A stretch of DNA of 64,000 bases, taken from Paremcibacter congregatus. Lineage in GTDB: Bacteria; Pseudomonadota; Alphaproteobacteria; Sphingomonadales; Emcibacteraceae. The position numbers were made by a program, and so were the translations under genes. The stretch spans positions 1,333,501 through 1,397,500 of the forward strand of contig NZ_CP041025.1 of the NCBI RefSeq assembly GCF_006385135.1, written 5' to 3'. The notes beneath the pieces are model-generated. The model saw only the letters and a list, made by a program, of their open reading frames with translations. It did not search any database and was not told the DNA's origin. This document shows positions 3,988 to 35,534 of this stretch, piece by piece; positions within the stretch are counted from its first letter, which is position 1, and each line of letters starts with the position of its first letter.

Positions 3988-5064
3988 ATGGCGGATGAGG
4001 GCATGACAGAAAAAAAAGACTTATTATCGCAATTAACTATAAATCGAGATGACAAAAGCCCGGATGGGACGTCTCTTGTGGCTTTGGGGGTGATTTTTCT
4101 CATTGCCCTGATAATTGGAATTGGGGCCGGGCGCTATATCTGGGGCGGGACGTCGACGTCGAATTATGCCGCGCCCGAGATACCTTCTCAACAGAAAAAC
4201 ACGACAGATACTGTCTCCCGAAATTCAATCAAACCCGCTGCCGATAAGATGGTCCCGGGTCCGACGGCCAGCGCGCAATCTTCTGATGATGCCGTTCTTG
4301 ATGCAAGCGGGTACATAATCGCCCGTCGCATGGCGACCGTGTCGGCGGAACTGACAGGGCGTATTGTCGACGTTCTGGTGGAAGAAGGCATGGCGGTAAA
4401 GCAGAACCAGAAACTGGCCACGCTTGATGACACGTTGGCGCAGGTGGGGCTTGATCTGTCGAAGGCCCAGCAGAAATCAGCACAGGCACGGGTACAGAGC
4501 GCCCGGGCAAGTCTCAAGGAAGCCAATCGGGTTCTGAAACGGGTCGAATCCTTGCAATCCAGCGATTTCACCAGCGAGGCGGCGCTGACCAACAGTATAC
4601 TCAATGTGGAAACCGGGCAGGCTGAACTCGCTCGGGCTCTTGCCGATCTCGAAGCGGCCGGTCTGGATGTGAAATTAAAGCAGGAACGACTTAACGATCA
4701 CACGGTCCGGGCGCCTTTTGCCGGGGTGGTGACCATCAAGAATGCCCAGCCGGGCGAGATTGTAGCGCCGGGATCGGCGGGAGGCGGCTTTACGCGTACC
4801 GGGATTTGTACCATTGTCGATATGGCGTCCCTGGAAATTGAAGCCGATGTCAATGAAGCCTTTATTGGACGGATTTTCGAAGGCCAACGGGTTGAAGCCA
4901 ACCTTGACGCTTACCCCCAGTGGCAGATTCCAGCACGGGTGATTGCGATAATCCCGACGGCGGATCGCAATAAGGCGACCGTGCGCGTACGAATAGAATT
5001 GTTGGTGAATGACCCGCGCATTCTGCCGGAAATGGGCGTAAAAATGTCTTTTTATAAAGAGTAA
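3988..5064 (+). CDS. Periplasmic adaptor (HlyD/MacA-type) of an ABC exporter
   Basis: 358-residue membrane-fusion protein. An N-terminal membrane anchor at about residues 30-50 (LVALGVIFLIALIIGIGAG) is followed by a lipoyl half-motif (SAELTGRIVDVLVEEGMAV), an alpha-hairpin rich in Ala/Gln/Arg (about 150-235), the second lipoyl half (VRAPFAGVVTIKNAQPGE) and a beta-barrel domain. It heads an operon with an ATPase and two permeases, so it should bridge the inner-membrane pump to an outer-membrane or periplasmic partner. The cargo is unknown. The start could also be the ATG at 4003; neither has a convincing ribosome site. An A8 run sits at the start of the coding region. Confidence 0.9.
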   Translation: MADEGMTEKKDLLSQLTINRDDKSPDGTSLVALGVIFLIALIIGIGAGRYIWGGTSTSNYAAPEIPSQQKNTTDTVSRNSIKPAADKMVPGPTASAQSSDDAVLDASGYIIARRMATVSAELTGRIVDVLVEEGMAVKQNQKLATLDDTLAQVGLDLSKAQQKSAQARVQSARASLKEANRVLKRVESLQSSDFTSEAALTNSILNVETGQAELARALADLEAAGLDVKLKQERLNDHTVRAPFAGVVTIKNAQPGEIVAPGSAGGGFTRTGICTIVDMASLEIEADVNEAFIGRIFEGQRVEANLDAYPQWQIPARVIAIIPTADRNKATVRVRIELLVNDPRILPEMGVKMSFYKE

Positions 5065-5107
5065 AACCGTTCTATTATTTAAATAACAAATCAACTGGAA
5101 AATGATC

Positions 5108-5824
5108 ATGGATGCGATGAAAAAACAGAAAGTCGAAAGTGAAAATTTGTTTGAGTTGAAGGGGATTGCCAAGAGTTTTACCAAAGGACGTGAGGTTATT
5201 TCGATCTTCAAAGATCTGAATATGACCATCAAGCGCGGCGAATTTCTCGCCATTATGGGACCGTCCGGGTCTGGGAAGACGACGTTGCTGAATATGCTGG
5301 GTGGTGTGGATCAGCCGACAACCGGGGAAGTCTGGTTCGACGGTGAACGGATCGACAGTCTGTCGGAAAACGGTCTTGCCAAATGGCGGTCGGAGAATAT
5401 CGGATTTATCTTCCAGTTTTACAATCTGATGCCAATGTTGTCGGCGGCGCGCAATGTGGAATTGCCCTTACTGCTGACGAATTTGCCGAAAAAACGCCGG
5501 TCGCAAAGTGTTGATGCGGCGCTGGAACTGGTGGGGCTGAAGGACCGGGCCGGGCATAAACCCAATGAAATGTCTGGCGGCCAGCAACAGAGGGTGGCGA
5601 TTGCCCGGGCGATTGTGTCAGACCCGAAGATGCTGCTCTGTGATGAGCCGACCGGGGACCTTGACCGGGAAACCGCCAATGAAATTCTTACCATGCTGCA
5701 GGAACTGAACCGGGATTATGGCAAAACCATTGTGATGGTAACCCATGACCCTGAAGCGGCGAAATACGCTCATAAGGTACTGCATCTGGACAAGGGCGAC
5801 TTTGTGGAGAAAGGAGAGCTGTGA
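5108..5824 (+). CDS. ABC transporter ATP-binding protein (MacB/LolD-like)
   Basis: About 238-residue cytoplasmic ATPase that powers the two permeases downstream. It shows Walker A (GPSGSGKTTLLN), Q-loop (FIFQFYNLMP), ABC signature (MSGGQQQRVAIARA), Walker B plus catalytic Glu (LLCDEPTGDLD) and the switch His (VTHDPEAA). The LMPMLSAARNVELPL segment is typical of the LolD/MacB family that handles lipoproteins, peptides or drugs. ATGs at 5102, 5108 and 5117 are all in frame; 5108 is chosen because GGAA lies about 8 nt upstream. Its stop overlaps the start of the next gene (TGATG), indicating translational coupling. Confidence 0.93.
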   Translation: MDAMKKQKVESENLFELKGIAKSFTKGREVISIFKDLNMTIKRGEFLAIMGPSGSGKTTLLNMLGGVDQPTTGEVWFDGERIDSLSENGLAKWRSENIGFIFQFYNLMPMLSAARNVELPLLLTNLPKKRRSQSVDAALELVGLKDRAGHKPNEMSGGQQQRVAIARAIVSDPKMLLCDEPTGDLDRETANEILTMLQELNRDYGKTIVMVTHDPEAAKYAHKVLHLDKGDFVEKGEL

Positions 5825-21420: not shown

Positions 21421-23091
21421 ATGTTCTTCAAATTATTGATGAGTATCATGACCGTTATCTTTATGGTCGGCAGCACGCAGGCCCAGGTGCATGACCCGCG
21501 GGCTCTTGCGGCGGACCCGAAGACGGCGACCGCCCCGATCGCGCCGAAGTTGACGGGGCTCGGGCATCACCATATCCCGGTGACCACCAGTAACCCGGAA
21601 AGCCAGTATTTCTTTGATCAGGGGGTGCGGTTATTCCTCGGGTTCAACCATTCAGAAGCTCTGCGATCATTCAAGGAAGCCATCCGGCTTGACCCGGAAA
21701 ACGCCATGGCCTATTGGGGCTGGGCGCTGGTGTTGGGGCCAAACCTGAATCTGCCGATGCAGGACAACGTGGTGCCCCGGGCGTATCAGGCGATCCAGCA
21801 GGCGGTGAAACTGAGCCCCAGGGTATCGGCGAAAGAACGCGGTTATATTACGGCGCTGGCCACCCGATACGGGCCAACCAGCGCCGACCGGGCGGCCCTG
21901 GATCATGCCTATAGCGCCGCCATGAAACAGCTGATGGATCAATATCCAGAAGACAATGACATCGCGACATTGTATGTGGCGGCGGTGATGAACACCAATC
22001 CGTGGAATTACTGGTATCCGGACGGCAGCCCCAAGGGCCGTACGGCGGAGATTCTGGCGATCCTGGATCGCGTCACTGCCCGCGCGCCGGATCATGCCGG
22101 GGCCCATCATTACCTCATTCATCTGGTGGAAGCCTTCCGGCCGGAACTGGCCGAACGCAGCGCCGACCTGCTGCGGCCGTTAATGCCGGGGGCCGGGCAT
22201 CTGGTGCATATGCCGAGCCATATTTATATGCGTCTCGGCCGCTATCAGGATTCCTACGAGGTCAACAGCAAGGCGATCCTCGCCGACCAGTCCTATATCA
22301 CCCAGTGTCAGGCCCAGGGACTGTATCCCCTGCGGTATTTCCCCCACAACATGCATTTCCTGGCCTGGTCAGCTATGTTTCTGGGCCGCAGTTCAGATGC
22401 GCTCAATGCCGCCCGCAGTGTCGCCAATCCGGATAAGTTCGTTACCAAGCTCAACAATTGGGGGCTTAACGAGACCTTTCTTGCCCAGCCGATGTTTGTC
22501 ATGATCCGCTTTGGACAGTGGGAGGACATGCTGGCCGAGCCCAGGCCGGTGACCAAGGGATATTTCCTGAACGGCATCTGGCATTATGGTCGCGGTCTCG
22601 CCTATTTGCATCAGGGCAAGCTTTCAAAAGCCAGGGCGGAACTGAAGGAACTCGTCGCCTGGCACAATCGCGCCCTGAAGGATACGGCCTATAACGGCGC
22701 CTTTTATTTCAACGACACCCTGTTCGCCATCGCCGAGGCGGTGTTGCAGGCCGAAATCCACGGCAAGGCGGGCGATTATACCAAGGCGCTCAGTCAGGCG
22801 GATCGGGCCGTGCGGCTGGAAGAAAGCCTTGATTACAACGAACCGCCCAACTGGTATTTCCCCACCCGCCATATCCTTGGCGCGGTGCTGATGGACGCGG
22901 GAAAACCGGCGGAGGCAGAGGTCGTCTATTGGGCTGACCTGCAGCAAAATCCCGACAATGGCTATGCCCTGTTTGGCCTGCATCAGGCGTTGATGGCACA
23001 GGGTAAGGCCGATCTGGCGGCGGTGATCAAGACGCGGTTTGACAAGGCCTGGTCCCGGGCCGATATGGCGTTAAGCTCGTCGCGTTTTTAA
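21421..23091 (+). CDS. Exported TPR-repeat protein
   Basis: 556-residue protein with a Sec signal peptide (about 1-22, ending STQAQ) and tetratricopeptide repeats, e.g. EALRSFKEAIRLDPENAMAYWGWAL and KALSQADRAVRLEES. Histidine-rich features (LGHHHIPV, DHAGAHHYLIHLVEA, HLVHMPSHIYMRLG) recur and may bind metal or mark a peptidase-like pocket. It resembles a family of periplasmic TPR proteins in alphaproteobacteria without assigned function. It lies 20 bp after the regulator gene, so they are probably one operon. Confidence 0.82.
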   Translation: MFFKLLMSIMTVIFMVGSTQAQVHDPRALAADPKTATAPIAPKLTGLGHHHIPVTTSNPESQYFFDQGVRLFLGFNHSEALRSFKEAIRLDPENAMAYWGWALVLGPNLNLPMQDNVVPRAYQAIQQAVKLSPRVSAKERGYITALATRYGPTSADRAALDHAYSAAMKQLMDQYPEDNDIATLYVAAVMNTNPWNYWYPDGSPKGRTAEILAILDRVTARAPDHAGAHHYLIHLVEAFRPELAERSADLLRPLMPGAGHLVHMPSHIYMRLGRYQDSYEVNSKAILADQSYITQCQAQGLYPLRYFPHNMHFLAWSAMFLGRSSDALNAARSVANPDKFVTKLNNWGLNETFLAQPMFVMIRFGQWEDMLAEPRPVTKGYFLNGIWHYGRGLAYLHQGKLSKARAELKELVAWHNRALKDTAYNGAFYFNDTLFAIAEAVLQAEIHGKAGDYTKALSQADRAVRLEESLDYNEPPNWYFPTRHILGAVLMDAGKPAEAEVVYWADLQQNPDNGYALFGLHQALMAQGKADLAAVIKTRFDKAWSRADMALSSSRF

Positions 23092-23318
23092 CTCGTGTCC
23101 GACGGGCAGGGGGTGGCATGGGTGAAGTCCTGTTGGTCCCGTAGGGTGATCAGCAGGGCTTCGACGTCTTCCCAGAAACGGGTGTTGTCCACGTTATTGT
23201 GGGCGGCGGCGTAATATTTGCGCCGTGATGTTTCATAAAAAGGATCGGGATAGATGTCCTGCAAGGTCTGCGCGGCCTCGGCCACGCTAAGGATGTTGTA
23301 AAGGTTAAGTTGGTCCAT
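23088..23318 (-). CDS. Small protein of unknown function
   Basis: 76-residue protein beginning MDQLNLYNILSVAEAAQ. The start at 23318 is strongly supported by GGAGGG about 6 nt upstream. It is acidic and probably helical, with a single FYETSRRKYY basic-aromatic patch. No family is recognised. It overlaps the convergent TPR gene by 4 bp. Its own promoter region holds the candidate small RNA and repeats at 23393-23658. Confidence 0.6.
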   Translation of the reverse strand: MDQLNLYNILSVAEAAQTLQDIYPDPFYETSRRKYYAAAHNNVDNTRFWEDVEALLITLRDQQDFTHATPCPSDTS

Positions 23319-23392
23319 AATCTGCCCTCCAAATTGTTTTATTGGGGGACACCAAAGGTGACGCAACACAACAAATCTCTGGTGCCGGGGGC

Positions 23393-23409
23393 TTCAAAGC
23401 ACTTACGAG
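23393..23409 (-). repeat. Copy A of a diverged inverted repeat
   Basis: On the minus strand this reads CTCGTAAGTGCTTTGAA and matches copy B (23561-23577, plus strand) at 14 of 17 positions. Weaker similarity continues beyond the 3' side (GCC..GGCACCAG versus GCCACTGCCACAG). Confidence 0.55.
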
Positions 23410-23528
23410 CAGTGTGGGCTGTATTTCTCAGATGAGTATTCTATTCCAGCACCACCCCCGACAGGAGAAAGTTACTCATGCCTCTTGGATCGGGCATTCT
23501 CTGTCGGTCCTGTATAATACAGGCCCAT

Positions 23529-23555
23529 AAAAAAACCACTCAAAATCGGGAGTGG
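23529..23555 (-). terminator. Rho-independent terminator of candidate small RNA
   Basis: Perfect 6-bp stem CCACTC / GAGTGG with an 8-nt loop, followed on the minus strand by seven T. Confidence 0.7.
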
Positions 23556-23560
23556 GCCGA

Positions 23561-23577
23561 CTCGTAGACGCTTTGAA
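23561..23577 (+). repeat. Copy B of a diverged inverted repeat
   Basis: CTCGTAGACGCTTTGAA, the plus-strand partner of copy A, 151 bp away. It lies within the transcribed part of the candidate small RNA. Confidence 0.55.
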
Positions 23578-23604
23578 ACGCCACTGCCACAGGGCAGCAC
23601 ACTC

Positions 23605-23634
23605 ATAATAACACACGGGTTATGTAAAGTGCAA
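23605..23634 (-). promoter_or_regulatory. Sigma70-type promoter of candidate small RNA
   Basis: On the minus strand TTGCAC (23634-23629) and TATTAT (23610-23605) are separated by 18 nt. Both hexamers are near consensus. It points away from the XRE regulator gene. Confidence 0.55.
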
Positions 23635-23644
23635 CCAATTTTAG

Positions 23645-23658
23645 GATACTATAGTATC
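23645..23658. promoter_or_regulatory. Perfect 14-bp palindrome before XRE regulator
   Basis: GATACTATAGTATC is fully self-complementary and contains a -10-like TATAGT. It lies 11 bp before the ATG at 23670 and about 10 bp upstream of the small-RNA -35 element, so a dimeric regulator bound here could control both directions. Confidence 0.6.
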
Positions 23659-23669
23659 TTTTTATTTTA

Positions 23670-23927
23670 ATGAATTCCCGACTACATAGGGGAATGATTA
23701 AGAAAGAAATAGGTGCAGAATTGAGACGGATGCGGGTTGAGCATGGCTTGACACAGGAAGCTTTGTCTCACAATGCTGACATCAGCATCAGCTTTTTGAA
23801 AAAGCTTGAAGCGGGGAACAAACAGCCAAGTGCTCTAACCCTGTTTAAATTGTCCCGCGCACTGGAAACAACCCCCGACAAATTAATTCTCCCGACCTAC
23901 CAGAAGTGGCTTGAAGCTGAGGGATGA
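23670..23927 (+). CDS. XRE-family transcriptional regulator
   Basis: 85-residue single-domain Cro/C1-type helix-turn-helix protein (LRRMRVEHGLTQEALSHNADISISFLKKLE, ending with a short tail). The size and form resemble restriction-modification controller (C) proteins. Two starts are possible: the ATG at 23670 has no ribosome site but sits about 15 nt after a -10-like element, consistent with a leaderless mRNA; the ATG at 23694 follows AGGGGA with almost no spacing. It is the first gene of the AT-rich island, 91 bp before the three-Cys-motif gene. Confidence 0.85.
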   Translation: MNSRLHRGMIKKEIGAELRRMRVEHGLTQEALSHNADISISFLKKLEAGNKQPSALTLFKLSRALETTPDKLILPTYQKWLEAEG

Positions 23928-24018
23928 AAAATAGTTTGATATAACTCTTTGGTGTATATCCCGTGACGGATATTATAAAAGGTGTTATGCTTCTGATAAT
24001 CATCTAATAGGATAATTA

Positions 24019-24774
24019 ATGTCTTCTAGCAAAATCGAATGGACAGAAAATACTTGGAATCCGGTCGCTGGTTGTGCCATCGTATCTCCAGGTTGTACTA
24101 ATTGTTATGCTATGAGGATGGCGGCACGATTGGAGGCTATGGGGGTTCAAAAATACTCTAACTTGACCCGAAAAACTGCAGGAAAACATAAGTGGACTGG
24201 GGAGGTATTCTTAGACAATAGAGCCCTTTCTCAACCGTTCAAGTGGAAGAAAAGTAGGCGTGTGTTTGTCAATTCTATGAGTGATTTGTTTCATGAAGCT
24301 GTCCCTGACGATTTTATTAAAAAAGTTTGGGATGTTATGGCAAAAACGCCACAACATGAATATCAAATTTTGACTAAACGACCGAAACGAATGCAGGAGG
24401 TTTTATCAAAATTACCCGTTATCAAAAATGTTTGGGTAGGTGTCAGTGTTGAAAGCTCAGATTACAACTTCCGGATTGATTTGCTTCGTGACACCCCTGC
24501 ACATGTTAAATTTATCTCCTTTGAACCGCTAATCGGTAATGTGGTTGGGGCTAATTTAACGGGAATAGATTGGGCAATCGTCGGCGGAGAATCAGGGCCA
24601 GGTGCTCGCCCAATGGACATTTCTTGGGTAGAGTATATCCAGAATATTTGTAAGGAGGCAGGAACTGCATTCTTCTTCAAGCAATGGGGTGGTATCAATA
24701 AAAAGAAAACAGGACGAGAGTTGCATGGCCGGACGTGGGATGAATATCCAGAAAAGGTTAGAGTGGCGGTTTAG
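24019..24774 (+). CDS. Three-Cys-motif protein, phage Gp37/Gp68 family (DUF5131)
   Basis: 251-residue protein of the Gp37/Gp68 (DUF5131) family. The hallmark is at the N-terminus: WTENTWNPVAGC, then Cys19, Cys26 and Cys29 (SPGCTNCYA), a spacing of C-X6-C-X2-C likely to hold an Fe-S cluster as in radical-SAM-like proteins. Other conserved blocks: FVNSMSDLFHEAVPD, ILTKRPKRM, VWVGVSVES, FISFEPLIG and the C-terminal IVGGESGPGARPM and FFFKQWGG. The reaction is not established. It overlaps its convergent partner gene by 4 bp and is clearly richer in A+T than flanking chromosome. Confidence 0.9.
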   Translation: MSSSKIEWTENTWNPVAGCAIVSPGCTNCYAMRMAARLEAMGVQKYSNLTRKTAGKHKWTGEVFLDNRALSQPFKWKKSRRVFVNSMSDLFHEAVPDDFIKKVWDVMAKTPQHEYQILTKRPKRMQEVLSKLPVIKNVWVGVSVESSDYNFRIDLLRDTPAHVKFISFEPLIGNVVGANLTGIDWAIVGGESGPGARPMDISWVEYIQNICKEAGTAFFFKQWGGINKKKTGRELHGRTWDEYPEKVRVAV

Positions 24775-25622
24775 CAATTTTTGACAATATGTGTGATGAT
24801 CCGTTTTGCAAGAGCAATAGCGGCAGGGCTTGGGTTAGAAATAGCATAATAAAATGAAAAGAACGGCACACCTTTTTTAGGTAGTTTTACGGGAGAGGAT
24901 ACATATGAAAAAACTTCATTTAGCCTACTATATATCATATTATCAAAAACGTCAGCACCTCTCTCACGTTCTAAGCTAATTTCGGAATCGAATAGTGAAG
25001 TTTGTCTTGAAGGTTTGTAAAGATTCTTCCAATCATTAGTTCCCAATACTTTAGTGAGAACGCCCTCCTTATATGGCTCAATATTTGATATCTTCCCAGC
25101 GGCTTGCCTAAAAACACCAGCTAAAGGGAATAAGTAGCAGACATCAATCCTTTTTGTGGCGGCTATGGCTTTTAGAGTTTCAAATTCTACTTCCATCCCA
25201 TATGGGTCTAAAAAAAGTAAACCTCTTTTCCTATTCCACTTTATGTTCTGGCAAGTTTTTTTTACATGGTAATTTGCATCACCCTTTAAGATTGTTATGT
25301 TTCTGTTTTGATTCTCTTGTTTTATTTTTTGAAGGTTTTCGATTTTTGCTTGGTCTTTTTCTATAAAATATAGCTCTTGAAATTGAGGGATCATATTCAA
25401 GGCTACTTTGACCGACCCATCATATTTTATTTTGCCATTTTGAGTTAAGTTCATGGGGTCCTCCACAGAGGCGACTCTTTCGCCCGTTCCGGCAAACGCA
25501 TCAATATAGACCAAATCAAAGTGATTTTTCCCACTAAGTGCTCTTGTGTATGCAGTCATGTATGATTTTAATAGGGTTATTTTTATTTCGGTCCAGTCAC
25601 CGCCATATCTATGTTCAACCAT
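24771..25622 (-). CDS. tcmP: Three-Cys-motif partner protein TcmP
   Basis: 283-residue protein matching the TcmP family, which is defined by its genomic pairing with the three-Cys-motif protein. Visible blocks: KSYMTAYTRAL, then VYIDAFAGTGE (similar to methyltransferase motif I), an acidic YFIEKDQAKIENL (motif II-like), FLDPYGMEVEFETL (motif IV-like), and YLFPLAGVFRQAAGK. A Rossmann methyltransferase-like fold is therefore inferred; the substrate is unknown. The ATG follows ATGGGGA. It converges on the DUF5131 gene with a 4-bp overlap. Confidence 0.88.
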   Translation of the reverse strand: MVEHRYGGDWTEIKITLLKSYMTAYTRALSGKNHFDLVYIDAFAGTGERVASVEDPMNLTQNGKIKYDGSVKVALNMIPQFQELYFIEKDQAKIENLQKIKQENQNRNITILKGDANYHVKKTCQNIKWNRKRGLLFLDPYGMEVEFETLKAIAATKRIDVCYLFPLAGVFRQAAGKISNIEPYKEGVLTKVLGTNDWKNLYKPSRQTSLFDSEISLERERGADVFDNMIYSRLNEVFSYVSSPVKLPKKGVPFFSFYYAISNPSPAAIALAKRIITHIVKNC

Positions 25623-26010
25623 TTCCCCATACTTCCTCTAAGACGTTTAATTTACCTGTAACGCTATTCTACCTTTAAGAGAAAGTCTATTATTAAGTTA
25701 TCGCAATTGTTCATGTTCCTGTGGGCAAGTGGTGATTTCAACCTTCCTGGCCCTCTCATACAAGATCGAGAGTCAGTATTTGGTTCTATTAGAAAATCCT
25801 CAAAATGTTTTCCGCGTATATGGTTTTCCGCTTGCCCGGAATGATACCTCCCCGGAGAAGTGATTAAACTCTGTCTATTGAGTGTACGCAAAAGTCCGGG
25901 CTGGAGGACGTGTTATTGTAGAGCTGTCACGGGGCCCCGTATCCGGTGCGCATTGAGCCTGTAATCGTCCCGATGAAGAAGAGTGGGGAATTGTCAAAGG
26001 TCCAAAGTCC
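25623..26010. other. Intergenic right edge of AT-rich island
   Basis: 388 bp with no convincing gene. The left part is AT-rich like the island; the right part returns to chromosomal composition and holds the perfect 12-bp palindrome ACGGGGCCCCGT (25929-25940), 70 bp before nfeD. A 75-codon minus-strand frame here has no recognisable homology and no ribosome site. Confidence 0.5.
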
Positions 26011-31318: not shown

Positions 31319-32497
31319 TTAGTCGACCCGATTTGATAGTGTGCTGGCACGTGCGGTATACCATGCATTTTTTCTGAAAAGGCGCGATAGTTTTCGGCCT
31401 GGACTTCCCAAAATGAATTTGGCGATATTATGGAAGAAAACTTTGATTTTGAATGTTCTGATGATGCGTTCAAGATGTGACCGGATATCGGTGTTGTCAT
31501 TCGCCTTGCAGAGCTCGACGAGTTCTTCCAGAAAATATAGGCCCTGGGCATCATTGAGAGCGAGCTGCTTATACGGATCGGCTCCCGTCGGTTCAGGAAG
31601 GCGGGCGCATTTCTTGCCCATGATTTTAAGGGCGAGGGATGTGCGCAAGCATTTCGGGCATTCTCCACAGTTATTGTATGATGATTTCCAGCATACCTGA
31701 AGCTGGTCAAGCAAGATCTGGTCTTCTGCAATATATTCTGTTTTCTCACAACGTGATGCGGCACATCCATGATGGATGATATGGGTGTTTTCCGTTGCCC
31801 ATAGGGGGTCTAACAGCGGGTGTGAGCCGTGAGGATGCAAAGTGGTATAGGAATAGGATGAGGGGATCAGCATCACTTTTGGGTTCAAGGTGATGCCGAT
31901 TACTGACAGCAGGCTGCCGTGCACGAGGGAGAATTCGAATTTTCTTGCATCGCAGTAGGCGCGGATATTGGTATCCACTGTGATGATTTTCTTGTTTTGG
32001 GACAGGGCAAAAGCCTTCCGGTCAGCCATGTTCTTTTCCCAGCTGTTTTCTTTATCCCAATTCTCAAAGGCTTTTACGAGGAGCAAGTGGGTAATATCGT
32101 CCCTGAAATGTCCAAAGGTGTAGGTGCTGTCGATCCCGCCGGAGAAACAACATATGATATTATCCGTCACGGGAAAATTTTTACGGGTTTTAGCCTGTAG
32201 CGGGGCGATGAGAAAGTCATCATTCCAGGATTTCAGAACGGCCTGTATTTCCCTATACATATGGGCCAATTGGTCTGAAATTTCGATGTCATCCTTAATG
32301 TGTACCGGGACGCCGCGGACCATGCTTTCCAACATTGCCGGGACCAGGAAAAGTTCCGCACGGGGTTCGATTTCTAGAAATAACGGGAAACGGAACCATA
32401 TTTTGTCGCCATCAACACAGGCGGATATTTCCTGATAATCTTTACAGTGTTCGAGTGTAATCCCAGTGACATCAACAGTTGGCGATGTTTCTGCCAT
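31319..32497 (-). CDS. PP-loop ATPase with Cys motif, QueC/asparagine-synthase-like
   Basis: 392-residue protein of unknown role. The PP-loop SGGIDS (119-124, CCFSGGIDSTYTF) defines an adenylating N-type ATP pyrophosphatase. A Cys cluster (Cys269, 277, 280, 283; NCGECPKCLRT) near the end resembles the zinc-binding site of QueC. Between them, SYSYTTLHPHGSHPLLDPLW is a distinctive conserved-looking loop. The sequence is not a standard QueC: it has a long N-terminal extension and C-terminal tail. AAGGGGAAAGGAA precedes the ATG. It lies 155 bp after an ATP-grasp gene on the same strand and is AT-richer than the core. Confidence 0.7.
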   Translation of the reverse strand: MAETSPTVDVTGITLEHCKDYQEISACVDGDKIWFRFPLFLEIEPRAELFLVPAMLESMVRGVPVHIKDDIEISDQLAHMYREIQAVLKSWNDDFLIAPLQAKTRKNFPVTDNIICCFSGGIDSTYTFGHFRDDITHLLLVKAFENWDKENSWEKNMADRKAFALSQNKKIITVDTNIRAYCDARKFEFSLVHGSLLSVIGITLNPKVMLIPSSYSYTTLHPHGSHPLLDPLWATENTHIIHHGCAASRCEKTEYIAEDQILLDQLQVCWKSSYNNCGECPKCLRTSLALKIMGKKCARLPEPTGADPYKQLALNDAQGLYFLEELVELCKANDNTDIRSHLERIIRTFKIKVFFHNIAKFILGSPGRKLSRLFRKNAWYTARASTLSNRVD

Positions 32498-32652
32498 TTC
32501 CTTTCCCCTTATGATTTGCCGGTTTCATAAATCGCTGGCAACTCTAGAAAGCGTACTATTGATACAGGAAGTGTAGCATTTAACAGGGGTACTTCAAAAT
32601 ACTATTTAGCCGCCAATATTAGGGGGCCTGTTTCTAGCACAACAATCCTGAA

Positions 32653-33723
32653 TTATTGGAATAGTAATATTTTGGTTTTAAGGCGTAACCATACCAGTCC
32701 AAGATAGGAAGGCAGTATGTTCATTTCAATCATGACGGGCCCCTCTTCTGTGATGCTGATATCCAGCCCGAGAAAACGCGTGTTGGGATAACAGCGTAGA
32801 GCCTTCAGCCCCATTTCTTCGGCTTCTTTCCAAAAGGGTATCCTATTCCCTTTTATGGTGGCGGTGTCTTTGTCGGGAAACATAAGCGGGTGATCATCGG
32901 AAATACAGAAGATGCAATCCTTGATTAATTCTCCGGTGCGATGGTCGACTTCAACACCAAATCCTCCACCTTCGAGACTATCAATGAGCGATCCTTCCGC
33001 CCCGATGCGCAGATAGGAACCCAGGGAAACGCATTCACCCTGGTTATTTTCATAGACAAACATTCTGATGGTATTGAGGCTGGTGGGGTTAAACTCTGCC
33101 ATACCAGGATGTTGCTGAATATAGTCTTCTATGACCCATCCGGCGGGGTTTTCATCCTGTAACAGATTTACGAGTTCTGGCAGGCTGTAATCCTGTTGAG
33201 TGGAAAGGTGGTGAGCCATCAGTTCTGTCCCGTTTTCCATAATTTCAAAAGCCTTGAAGCCTTGCCCCCCGTGCCCAACCACCATTTTAAAACATACCTT
33301 TTCCCCAATATGTTTTTGCAGCAGTTCTTTAAGGTCTAGCTTGGATTTTAAAGGCTTTCCGTCTTCTGTCACACCCCAGTCCTGATTAAAAGTACCAAGA
33401 TGTCGCGCCGTTGGGATGTTAAATAATTTGAAGTATGCTTTTTCAAAGGGTTTATATTGAGAAACGCCGTGGTATTTCCATTGATTGAGCTGGAATATTC
33501 TTTTGACGAACTGGCGTGACCCCAGCATGTTTAGTTTATCCCGCCATTTGCTATCTTTGTGCCACATTCTGGCACTGTGGTAATGCCAATAACCAATACC
33601 CTGGGTTGCCTGCAGGTAGGTTATCTCGCAGATTTGCCGAAATGTTGATAAGTGGCCTTCTTTCGCGCGCGAATGGCATAATTTGTAGGCATGACTGGTT
33701 TTGTGTATTATTTTAGTAAGCAT
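32653..33723 (-). CDS. ATP-grasp ligase-like protein (sugar-transfer-associated type)
   Basis: 356-residue protein with an ATP-grasp fold: HGGQGFKAFEIM (nucleotide-lid Gly-rich loop), WVIEDYIQQHPGMAEFNP, SLNTIRMFVY, and the metal-binding GLDISITEEGPVMIEMN. These blocks fit the family of ATP-grasp enzymes linked to glycosyl-transfer and capsule loci (PF14397-like, from memory), which are thought to attach amino-acid or related carboxylates. An N-terminal helical region (about 1-100) is basic. The ATG lacks a good ribosome site. A frameshifted paralogue remnant lies immediately upstream at 33841-34190. Confidence 0.78.
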   Translation of the reverse strand: MLTKIIHKTSHAYKLCHSRAKEGHLSTFRQICEITYLQATQGIGYWHYHSARMWHKDSKWRDKLNMLGSRQFVKRIFQLNQWKYHGVSQYKPFEKAYFKLFNIPTARHLGTFNQDWGVTEDGKPLKSKLDLKELLQKHIGEKVCFKMVVGHGGQGFKAFEIMENGTELMAHHLSTQQDYSLPELVNLLQDENPAGWVIEDYIQQHPGMAEFNPTSLNTIRMFVYENNQGECVSLGSYLRIGAEGSLIDSLEGGGFGVEVDHRTGELIKDCIFCISDDHPLMFPDKDTATIKGNRIPFWKEAEEMGLKALRCYPNTRFLGLDISITEEGPVMIEMNILPSYLGLVWLRLKTKILLFQ

Positions 33724-33840
33724 AGCTTTTATACTCGTTGAATAATATGTTTGCCGTTTTGGAAAGGGTAATATTACTGAGTAAGCTTTTTTATCTTGAG
33801 TAATACTGAGAATGTGTTTTCTCCGCTTATTTCAAGCTAC

Positions 33841-34190
33841 TTATATGTCTATTACACGCGGTGAGGTTGTCAGAGTCAAGAGATCAATATTATTGGCATG
33901 TGTTGTGATGATTAAGGAACTTTCCACAAAACCTAGAGGCTGTTCCTGTCGTATGTGTAAGCTGTTGAAAATCCTGGCTACAGGGATTTTGAGGTAACAC
34001 AAGCCATCGACGTCGGGTTGAATGTTAACTTCCACCATGACAGATCTATTTGGTATAATGGCAATGTCCAGTCCTGCAAAACGAGTATTGGGTAAAATAG
34101 TGAGGTTTTTATCCCCAGCTCTTTTGCCTCGCGCCAAAAAGGCAGGGCAATGCCTTCAATTTGACTTTCGTGATCGGGTTGTCGTGACAT
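33841..34190 (-). pseudogene. Remnant of a second ATP-grasp gene, frameshifted and 5'-deleted
   Basis: The minus strand encodes QIEGIALPFWREAKELGIK in one frame (upstream of about 34105) and then LPNTRFAGLDIAII plus VMVEVNIQPD in another (downstream to the stop at 33841). Together they match the C-terminal portion of the intact gene at 32653-33723 (IPFWKEAEEMGLK, YPNTRFLGLDISIT, VMIEMNILPS). The break is a single-base frameshift near 34101-34116, at a G4 or A5 run. No N-terminal half remains. It records duplication and decay. Confidence 0.75.
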
Positions 34191-34616
34191 AGTTGTCCCT
34201 GTTGCGCCCGTTTGTTGCATATATAATATACATATTTAATTTTCTGAATTTTTGTCTTTATCATATTCATTATTTTTTTACTATTAATGCTACACAGGAT
34301 GTTATCTTTTTCAAATATAGGGTAAATGCCTTAAAAATTGACTAAACAAAAAGCTTGTACAACGGGAGAGGGATGATCTGATATCTTGCTCCCGACAACA
34401 CGTCCCGTTTATTCTATGGATAGACTAAGGGTCGCCCGGATTCATGAAATTTTATAGATTTTACGCTCTTATCTCAAGTCATATGGATTTATTGCGCAGG
34501 CTATTTGTTCAATTGCCGATTCATTCCTTGACGGAGGGGGGCGCGATGAGTAATTTCCAGCGGTAAATCACAGGTTCTGCGGAACCGGGTATCGGTCAAG
34601 GAAAGATGTACAAAAC
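34191..34616. other. AT-rich region upstream of glyQ
   Basis: 426 bp with no gene. The distal part is very AT-rich and belongs to the decayed ATP-grasp region. The proximal part holds inverted segments (ACGGGA...TCCCGT, 34365-34415), a short hairpin GGTTC-TGC-GGAACC at about 34573-34587, and a six-codon leader frame at 34546-34566. No tRNA-like or riboswitch motif was recognised. Confidence 0.5.
34546..34566 (+). other. Possible 6-codon leader peptide before glyQ
   Basis: ATG AGT AAT TTC CAG CGG TAA encodes MSNFQR, with a strong GGAGGGGG about 5 nt upstream. It lies 51 bp before glyQ and is followed by the hairpin GGTTC-TGC-GGAACC. There are no Gly codons, so classical attenuation by glycine is unlikely. 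It might still be translated. Confidence 0.3.
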
Positions 34617-34619
34617 GTG

Positions 34620-35534
34620 ATGGAAAAAATGTCGGCAGGGACGGAAGCACCTCGCAAGGAAAAGGCGTTCCAGACGCTGATCCTTAAACTCCAGAAATTC
34701 TGGGCCGATCAGGGCTGTGTAATCCTGCAGCCCTATGATGTGGAAATGGGCGCCGGGACCTTTCAGGCGGCAACCACCTTGCGCTCTCTGGGGGCAAAGC
34801 CCTGGAAAGCGGCCTATGTCCAGCCCTGTCGCAGGCCCACCGATGGCCGTTACGGCGAAAACCCCAACCGTTTGCAGCATTATTATCAATTTCAGGCCGT
34901 CCTCAAACCGTCCCCGGACAATATTCAGGAACTTTATCTGAAAAGCCTTGAGGTCTTGGGCATCAATGCGCTGGAGCATGACATCCGTTTCGTTGAGGAT
35001 GATTGGGAAAGCCCGACCCTGGGCGCCTGGGGACTGGGCTGGGAAGTCTGGTGTGACGGCATGGAAGTCAGCCAGTTCACTTACTTTCAGCAGGTCGGCG
35101 GCTTTGACTGTCGCCCGGTGATGGGTGAACTGACCTACGGGTTGGAGCGACTGGCCATGTATATTCAGGGTGTCGACAATGTTTACGATCTCGACTGGAA
35201 CGGCGAAGGCGTCACTTACGGCGATGTCTTCCTACAGAATGAAAAAGAATTTTCCGCTTATAATTTCGAGATTGCCGATACGGATCGCCTGTTTCAGCAT
35301 TTCAAGGATGCGGAGGCGGAATGCGCCCTGATCCTGGCACGTGGCGAGGCGGACGGGAAATACTATCCCCTGCCGGCCTATGATCAATGTATCAAGGCGT
35401 CGCATGCGTTTAACCTGCTGGATGCGCGCGGTGTGATCAGCGTCACCGAGCGTCAGGCCTATATCGGCCGGGTGCGGGCGCTGGCCAAGAAATGCTGCGA
35501 AGCCTATCTTAAATCTCAGGGGGAGGCCGTCTGA
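34620..35534 (+). CDS. glyQ: Glycyl-tRNA synthetase alpha subunit
   Basis: About 304-residue catalytic subunit of the alpha2beta2 glycyl-tRNA synthetase. Class II hallmarks: [35 protein letters not shown] (motif 2 region) and [12 protein letters not shown] (motif 3). GTG at 34617 directly precedes the ATG. Stop and next start overlap by 1 nt (TGATG), coupling translation to glyS, as usual for this complex. Confidence 0.97.

Follow-up and report, generated by a model that had tools for sequence, protein, structure and literature searches.

Here we examine a compact gene group in a 64,000-nt stretch of Paremcibacter congregatus DNA (contig NZ_CP041025.1; the whole stretch is called the window, and coordinates are positions within it). 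At its core lie the genes for DUF5131, a three-cysteine-motif protein, and for TcmP, its presumed partner. An earlier note had described a low-GC block holding an XRE regulator, a C-X6-C-X2-C DUF5131 protein and a convergent TcmP; the open reading frames (ORFs), their lengths and strands, the 4-bp overlap and the protein families were all confirmed (Table 1). The GC fraction of positions 23560-25900 is 0.401, and the 2-kb segment at 23901 has the lowest GC of all 64 kb (0.394, against a mean of 0.509 and a standard deviation of 0.036). A further low-GC stretch lies at about 31900-35100 (2-kb segments below 45% GC). No convincing direct repeats were found at the island edges, and a search for the empty insertion site found the flanking NfeD and TPR genes close together in none of 32 family genomes except the organism's own.

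The pairing of DUF5131 with TcmP was assessed in two collections. Apart from the window itself, the first draws its 168 TcmP loci from viral contigs (the best 80 of 95), genomes (the best 80 of at least 539) and regions of phages or plasmids (7); the second is a class sample of 289 genomes of the class, which is less biased than loci fetched with a window-like TcmP. In the class sample, DUF5131 was present in all 17 genomes with TcmP over the cut-off, compared with 36 of 289 overall (Fisher test, 7e-18), and by coordinates the two matches lay at most 1 kb apart in every one of the 17. Among the 168 loci DUF5131 was found in 158, within 400 nt of TcmP in 150 and with a gap of more than 1 kb in 8. 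The pairing proposed in the earlier note thus holds in both collections. Distance matrices of the two proteins are also correlated (r 0.44, n = 120, permutation p 0.001; the best of 999 permutations reached 0.18). With regard to gene order, 130 of the 158 pairs are convergent, 17 and 10 are co-directional in the two possible orders and one is divergent; convergent genes overlap at 121 of the 168 loci, by 4-89 nt. After clustering at 80%, 101 of 123 loci remained convergent and 92 overlapping, while other convergent ORFs, taken as a control from crude ORF calls, overlapped in 51 of 216 cases. Convergent overlap as a family-wide feature was nonetheless rejected, only 3 of the 17 class-sample pairs being convergent by coordinates. 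It is a style that belongs to window-like TcmP.

In PADLOC, the PDC-M41A profile matches TcmP (3.3e-74) and PDC-M41B matches DUF5131 (2.9e-110), both over nearly the full length. With its two genes adjacent, the pair is by these profile matches an already catalogued phage-defence candidate, PDC-M41, of which no test was found in the literature searched. At two loci, TcmP is adjoined by a second, longer protein that resembles TcmP and carries a GMT-wHTH domain (PF22560; L113, 11154-12167; L114, 10921-12357); this companion separates TcmP from DUF5131 in L114, where it has a match to PDC-M30A.

TcmP matches TIGR04474 near full length, with 175.5 bits against a cut-off of 53, and carries DAFAGTG as motif I and DPYG as motif IV. 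Its AlphaFold2 model (pLDDT 93.4) adopts the Rossmann fold of S-adenosylmethionine (AdoMet) methyltransferases. Foldseek identified RlmJ as the closest solved fold (3.8e-7), with Trm1 lower (2.7e-5) among other methyltransferases, and by sequence the TcmP family profile reached RlmJ as well (whole-sequence E 6e-4), with the Y-I-D-..-AG-G, GS and DP motifs aligned. Judged from predicted structure and profile match, TcmP resembles nucleic-acid methyltransferases of the RlmJ/Trm1 type, an assignment that is new here and in line with the methyltransferase-like character suspected before. At motif IV, 154 of 158 TcmP proteins read DP[YF]G, and the RlmJ-type DPPY was not found there. Trm1 has a DPFG-type motif IV and adenine-N6 enzymes have DPPY; by this analogy, guanine or another exocyclic amine is a possible target of TcmP.

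The cysteine motif of DUF5131 is GCAIVSPGCTNC, that is C-X6-C-X2-C, formed by C19, C26 and C29. The spacing of 6 and 2 recurs in 153 of 158 DUF5131 proteins, which is every one in which the motif was found, the other 5 being without the N-terminal stretch (cut or ambiguous). A link to radical S-adenosylmethionine (SAM) enzymes comes from the 10 of 168 TcmP loci without DUF5131. In 6 of these a radical-SAM-type protein adjoins TcmP (Table 1); in the remaining 4 (L072, L073, L102 and L113) the contig stops at TcmP or no more than 1.3 kb from it, and the partner was possibly cut off. The four stand-ins run against Pfam (L006, L057, L059 and L060) contain PF04055 with E from 1e-7 to 3e-12, and those of L057, L059 and L060 match PF04055 over the cut-off together with PF07505 below it (about 1e-4). 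Alignment of the DUF5131 profile with that of five stand-ins by hhalign gave a probability of 89.7 and an E of 1.8e-6 with the cysteine region aligned, from shallow profiles; this argues for homology of DUF5131 to proteins with PF04055 over the cut-off. DUF5131 further matches the NCBIfam model rSAM_mob_pairA (radical SAM mobile pair protein A; 1.9e-19; 70/355 bits, far below cut-off), over residues 76-221 and hence outside the cysteine motif. For the AlphaFold2 model of DUF5131 (pLDDT 93.2), the top Foldseek match was spore photoproduct lyase (E 2.8e-3, TM score 0.40), with other TIM barrels close behind. Because a radical-SAM-type protein replaces DUF5131 beside TcmP in 6 of 10 loci, DUF5131 probably descends, as a divergent member, from radical-SAM enzymes, a link through swapped partners that is new here. 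Of the iron-sulphur character that the earlier note had thought probable for DUF5131, a radical-SAM (Fe-S) ancestry is supported as probable by the partner swap and the hhalign result.

Table 1. Features of the window locus, followed by the radical-SAM-type proteins beside TcmP at other loci (positions within the respective locus)
Feature	Position	Strand	Evidence	Remark
XRE/Cro-CI regulator, 85 aa	23670-23927	+	HTH_3, E 1.3e-12	local neighbour, not a conserved part
DUF5131 (three-Cys-motif, Gp37/Gp68 family), 251 aa	24019-24774	+	PF07505, E 1.4e-98	
TcmP, 283 aa	24771-25622	-	TIGR04474, E 2e-51	
4-bp convergent overlap of DUF5131 and TcmP gene ends	24771-24774		ORF coordinates	
Perfect 14-bp palindrome GATACTATAGTATC, candidate operator	23645-23658			directly before XRE start
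sRNA-Xcc1-like (RF02221) element	23376-23462	-	Rfam match	leader-like, outside the pair
Terminator-like hairpin followed by T run	23536-23555	-		upstream of RNA element
76-aa ORF	23088-23318	-	similar ORFs in genome and genus	downstream of RNA element
Radical-SAM-type stand-in, L006 (Nostoc)	4838-5812			CX3CX2C
Radical-SAM-type stand-in, L057	5635-6435			CX3CX3C
Radical-SAM-type stand-in, L059	10850-11632			CX3CX3C
Radical-SAM-type stand-in, L060	10844-11659			CX3CX3C
Radical-SAM-type stand-ins, L061 and L064				CX3CX3C; 96% and 80% identical to L059

The pair is carried by mobile elements. Among 50,697 phage records, 157 contain DUF5131, and among 72,556 plasmid records 408 do, counts that hold at the sensitivity of those searches; a window-like TcmP was found in 5 phage and 13 plasmid records. 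On viral contigs we considered two neighbours per side (150 of 179 listed, from 38 of 49 loci); the phage repressor families phrog_4 and Peptidase_S24 rank with the more frequent ones and account for 11 and 8 of the 150, and the P2-type tail genes GPD and GpU for 5 and 3. In Gordonia phage PantheRoc, a PDC-M41A/B pair lies between the integrase and the immunity repressor, and the TcmP and repressor genes share 4 nt; in Gordonia phage Fairfaxidum, a PDC-M30A-like gene and DUF5131 occupy the same interval, 3 nt from the repressor. In both, the two genes are convergent, with the methyltransferase on the strand of the repressor. These cargo sites and the PADLOC match support the association with phages and candidate defence that had been claimed for the pair. 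Carriage by phages, plasmids and viral contigs would also suit a pair that protects its carrier element rather than the cell, modifying DNA or RNA of that element (or tRNA of the host) so that it escapes host restriction or nucleases. We consider this explanation unlikely, as the genes stand beside the immunity repressor, a lysogen-expressed region, in the two Gordonia phages, and by Pfam the pair in the window has no phage genes next to it.

Individual loci place TcmP, with DUF5131 or a radical-SAM partner, next to defence genes: BREX lies beside TcmP and its radical-SAM partner in Nostoc, Abi genes lie by the pair in Leisingera, and annotated restriction endonucleases do so on Pseudochrobactrum and Streptomyces plasmids. 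Published data touch the pair at few points. In Sinorhizobium meliloti, transcripts of hna (SMa2245) and tcmP (SMa2243) were both about two-fold up in the nolR+ strain, according to the excerpt of that report (PMC12445080); TcmP figures there, as in one further paper, as a single table entry. PDC-M30 was predicted in 32 Pseudomonas aeruginosa strains, 68.8% of them resistant, a figure given in the excerpt with no baseline alongside (PMC10855318). No paper naming DUF5131, TIGR04474, PF07505 or PDC-M41 was found in the literature searched. Phages and plasmids carry DUF5131 widely.

Our preferred reading is that DUF5131 and TcmP would form a self-contained, horizontally moving cassette of two enzymes. 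TcmP would be an enzyme of the RlmJ/Trm1 kind that uses AdoMet to methylate bases, with RNA, going by the fold, as its most likely substrate. DUF5131 would be a radical-SAM-derived TIM-barrel enzyme; homology supports this descent, and the protein may hold a [4Fe-4S] cluster in its altered CX6CX2C motif and put it to radical chemistry. Given the tight pairing and the swapping of partners, both enzymes probably modify the same nucleic-acid substrate, one after the other. Temperate phages, plasmids and islands would carry the pair as cargo, and the likeliest benefit would be that the cell carrying it is protected from other phages. The XRE protein would be at most a local regulator, and the nearby RNA element would be tied to a neighbouring gene. 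Taken as a whole, including protection against phages, we hold this explanation tentatively, with slightly more doubt than confidence. A more specific form of it, in which a DP[YF]G methyltransferase and then a CX6CX2C radical-SAM enzyme carry out a two-step nucleic-acid hypermodification in defence, with interchangeable radical-SAM subunits, we rate as rather unlikely.

Several results weigh against the cassette so described. For DUF5131, no PF04055 match to the window protein was found up to E 1, no Foldseek match to its model fell below 1e-3, no PDB sequence matched its profile, and the canonical CX3CX2C is absent, with CX6CX2C in its place; in addition, the hhalign profiles had effective sequence numbers (Neff) of 2.5 and 1.7. 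The non-standard spacing, the missing PF04055 match and the weak structural match would suit a protein that binds metal through its three cysteines without radical chemistry and serves as a scaffold or regulator of TcmP. The replacement of DUF5131 by radical-SAM-type proteins beside TcmP, and the strict conservation of all three cysteines, make such a role quite improbable to us. For the pairing, 19 of 289 genomes have DUF5131 without TcmP over the cut-off, and 6 genomes of the 289 searched have sub-cut-off TcmP matches and no DUF5131. That DUF5131 occurs alone in those 19 genomes and TcmP over the cut-off never does, in a tightly linked, small mobile cassette, could also point to a toxin-antitoxin or addiction cassette, in which a harmful modification by one enzyme is removed or prevented by the other; however, both proteins look like enzymes and this analysis gave no sign of toxicity, and we regard an addiction role as very improbable. 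For a role in defence, no family recurs among the nearest neighbours at genome loci (130 proteins, 68 loci), and the PADLOC families among genome-locus neighbours have at most 2 members each (25 of 248 shown), so there is no strong defence-island signal. Of the enrichment near defence or mobile genes that the earlier note had predicted, the mobile context is plain and enrichment near defence genes is not shown statistically. Other PADLOC candidates, PDC-M63AB and PDC-S04, were inactive when tested, according to the excerpt of the report concerned (PMC12409345).

The XRE gene lies 91 nt upstream of DUF5131, and the palindrome GATACTATAGTATC before its own start matches the window exactly at one place; allowing up to 3 mismatches gives 2 matches, against 1.12 expected. 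This placement would fit the version in which XRE controls the pair like the C-protein of a restriction-modification system, with a small RNA as a further component. Across loci, XRE and the RNA rarely recur. An XRE profile was searched against 107 deduplicated loci that have 1-kb flanks; 8 of them, including the window, have an XRE gene within 1 kb, and within 300 nt only the window and L095 do, i.e., 1 of 106 other deduplicated loci. This profile, with 33 match rows in total, is narrow and weak helix-turn-helix genes may escape it; a scan with Pfam tests the point better. Among the 130 nearest neighbours at 68 genome loci, that scan found HTH_3 in 6 and HTH_31 in 6, with no family higher; other families match 1-3 of 130 each and are mutually unrelated (25 of 100 families shown). 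A recurring linkage of XRE to the modification gene, of the C-protein type, was not found in the 107 deduplicated loci or the 130 neighbours. Nor does the palindrome occur again ahead of DUF5131 or TcmP, even when 3 mismatches are allowed, and the RNA element points the other way. We therefore rejected XRE as a component or dedicated controller of the pair; the C-protein-like arrangement is largely refuted as a general system and strikes us as barely tenable. XRE is at most a local regulator, and the palindrome is likely its autoregulatory operator, as a candidate identified by position.

The second proposed accessory was a candidate small RNA in a structured intergenic region. The region does contain a structured element, a remote relative of sRNA-Xcc1 (RF02221), and it lies outside the low-GC block, with a GC of 0.54. 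The match spans all 87 model positions and scores 41.9 bits (E 2.5e-5 in a 2.9-kb search), which is 11 bits short of the gathering score, 53; in the 4.19-Mb genome of the organism it is the sole match at E up to 1 (E 8.4e-6 there). The folding energy of the element alone is not unusual (z -1.2). It is directed away from XRE, DUF5131 and TcmP and toward the 76-aa ORF, which has three weaker relatives in the same genome (one with a stop) and a few in the genus, and which matched no Pfam or NCBIfam family. The terminator-like hairpin upstream is weak on its own, there being 4 such sites against 2.7 expected. Recurrence was assessed with the RNA model R1, which contains the window element and so matches the window by construction, and which is nearly a sequence model since its RNAalifold structure has 3 pairs. 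At E up to 0.1, R1 matched the window and L089, that is, 1 of 167 other TcmP loci. The small RNA was accordingly rejected as a component of the pair; it would belong to the neighbouring gene. Recurrence of the XRE gene and small RNA with the pair, on which the earlier note had staked its system, is essentially lacking in these loci. XRE, DUF5131, TcmP and RNA are not supported as a four-part system: two of the four parts are neighbours, apparently by chance.

The RNA family itself is more widely distributed, with RF02221 matches in 10 of 147 relatives (E up to 0.01), 51 of 299 genomes of the phylum (E up to 0.001) and 14 of 185 genomes of another class (E up to 1e-5). We fetched 42 loci (L171-L211 and the window), covering all 12 places in relatives and 30 from the phylum set. 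In 30 of these partly related loci, a start codon matched by a ribosome-binding site and opening an ORF of at least 55 aa lies 10-75 nt downstream; on the opposite side this is so in 1 of 42 loci, and for positions chosen at random in 427 of 4200. A replication with 24 fresh loci (L268-L291) gave 16 downstream, 1 on the other side and 186 of 2400 random positions; the counts are not independent because many loci are related. A wider search found a downstream ORF in 36 of the 42 loci, and Pfam assigned 5 of these 36 to autoinducer-binding (each of the 5 from a relative of the window genome), 4 to Bro-N, 2 to Rha, 1 to KilA-N and 1 to SymE. Among 52 proteins of both sets, PHROGs gave anti-repressor families with up to 4 members per family (distinct members not counted). 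One related genome has three RF02221 elements (L173, L180 and L181), each before a similar ORF, and that of L173 encodes a LuxR-type autoinducer-binding protein. The placement before start codons is similar to that of phage c4 RNA. A scan of 20 of the 42 loci with c4 models gave no match at the element and one c4-2 match elsewhere in L189. Pairing of the element with the downstream leader, as in c4-like antisense, was mixed (13 of 33 at z below -2), and the window element has no excess of such pairing (z +0.67). By title, as given in reference lists, sRNA-Xcc1 is said to be integron-encoded (Chen et al. 2011). In the excerpt of a Xanthomonas study, a cassette has the sRNA-Xcc1 RNA upstream of symE (PMC12444791), and the excerpt of a Xylella EV paper gives seven RF02221 copies, five of them clustered in an island. 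RF02221 may possibly be a c4-like leader family, with some members upstream of phage antirepressor-type or LuxR-type genes, rather than a free virulence sRNA. Many members of a family so far described as virulence-linked would then read as leaders of the adjacent downstream gene.

The partner swap yields a direct claim, that DUF5131 would be a radical-SAM enzyme working with a base methyltransferase. If true, the candidates PDC-M41 and PDC-M30 could be examined as one mechanism, and the two-step model would represent an anti-phage enzyme pair that uses radical-SAM chemistry on nucleic-acid bases. Compared with known systems, the window TcmP has no notable difference from NCBIfam TIGR04474 (three-Cys-motif partner TcmP), and the window copy of PDC-M41 differs by its neighbouring XRE. 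PDC-M30, which combines a long TcmP-like protein with DUF5131, shares the DUF5131 partner (M30B, E 4.9e-103), whereas the A protein of PDC-M30, with a model of 372 aa, is longer and is matched by the window TcmP only in part (1.6e-13). RlmJ, the 23S rRNA A2030-N6 methyltransferase, shares with TcmP the fold, motif I (Y-I/L-D-..-AG-G), the GS motif and the DP of motif IV, but has DPPY where TcmP has DP[YF]G, at an identity of 12-14%. Trm1, a tRNA guanine-N2 methyltransferase, shares the fold at 10% identity and is longer (387 aa). The sRNA-Xcc1 family is matched by the window element at full length, yet below its gathering score. Finally, spore photoproduct lyase and other radical-SAM enzymes come out as the top structural matches of DUF5131, at a Foldseek E of only 2.8e-3, and the stand-ins beside TcmP are homologous to it, whereas the cysteines of radical-SAM enzymes are spaced by 3 and 2 residues and those of DUF5131 by 6 and 2.

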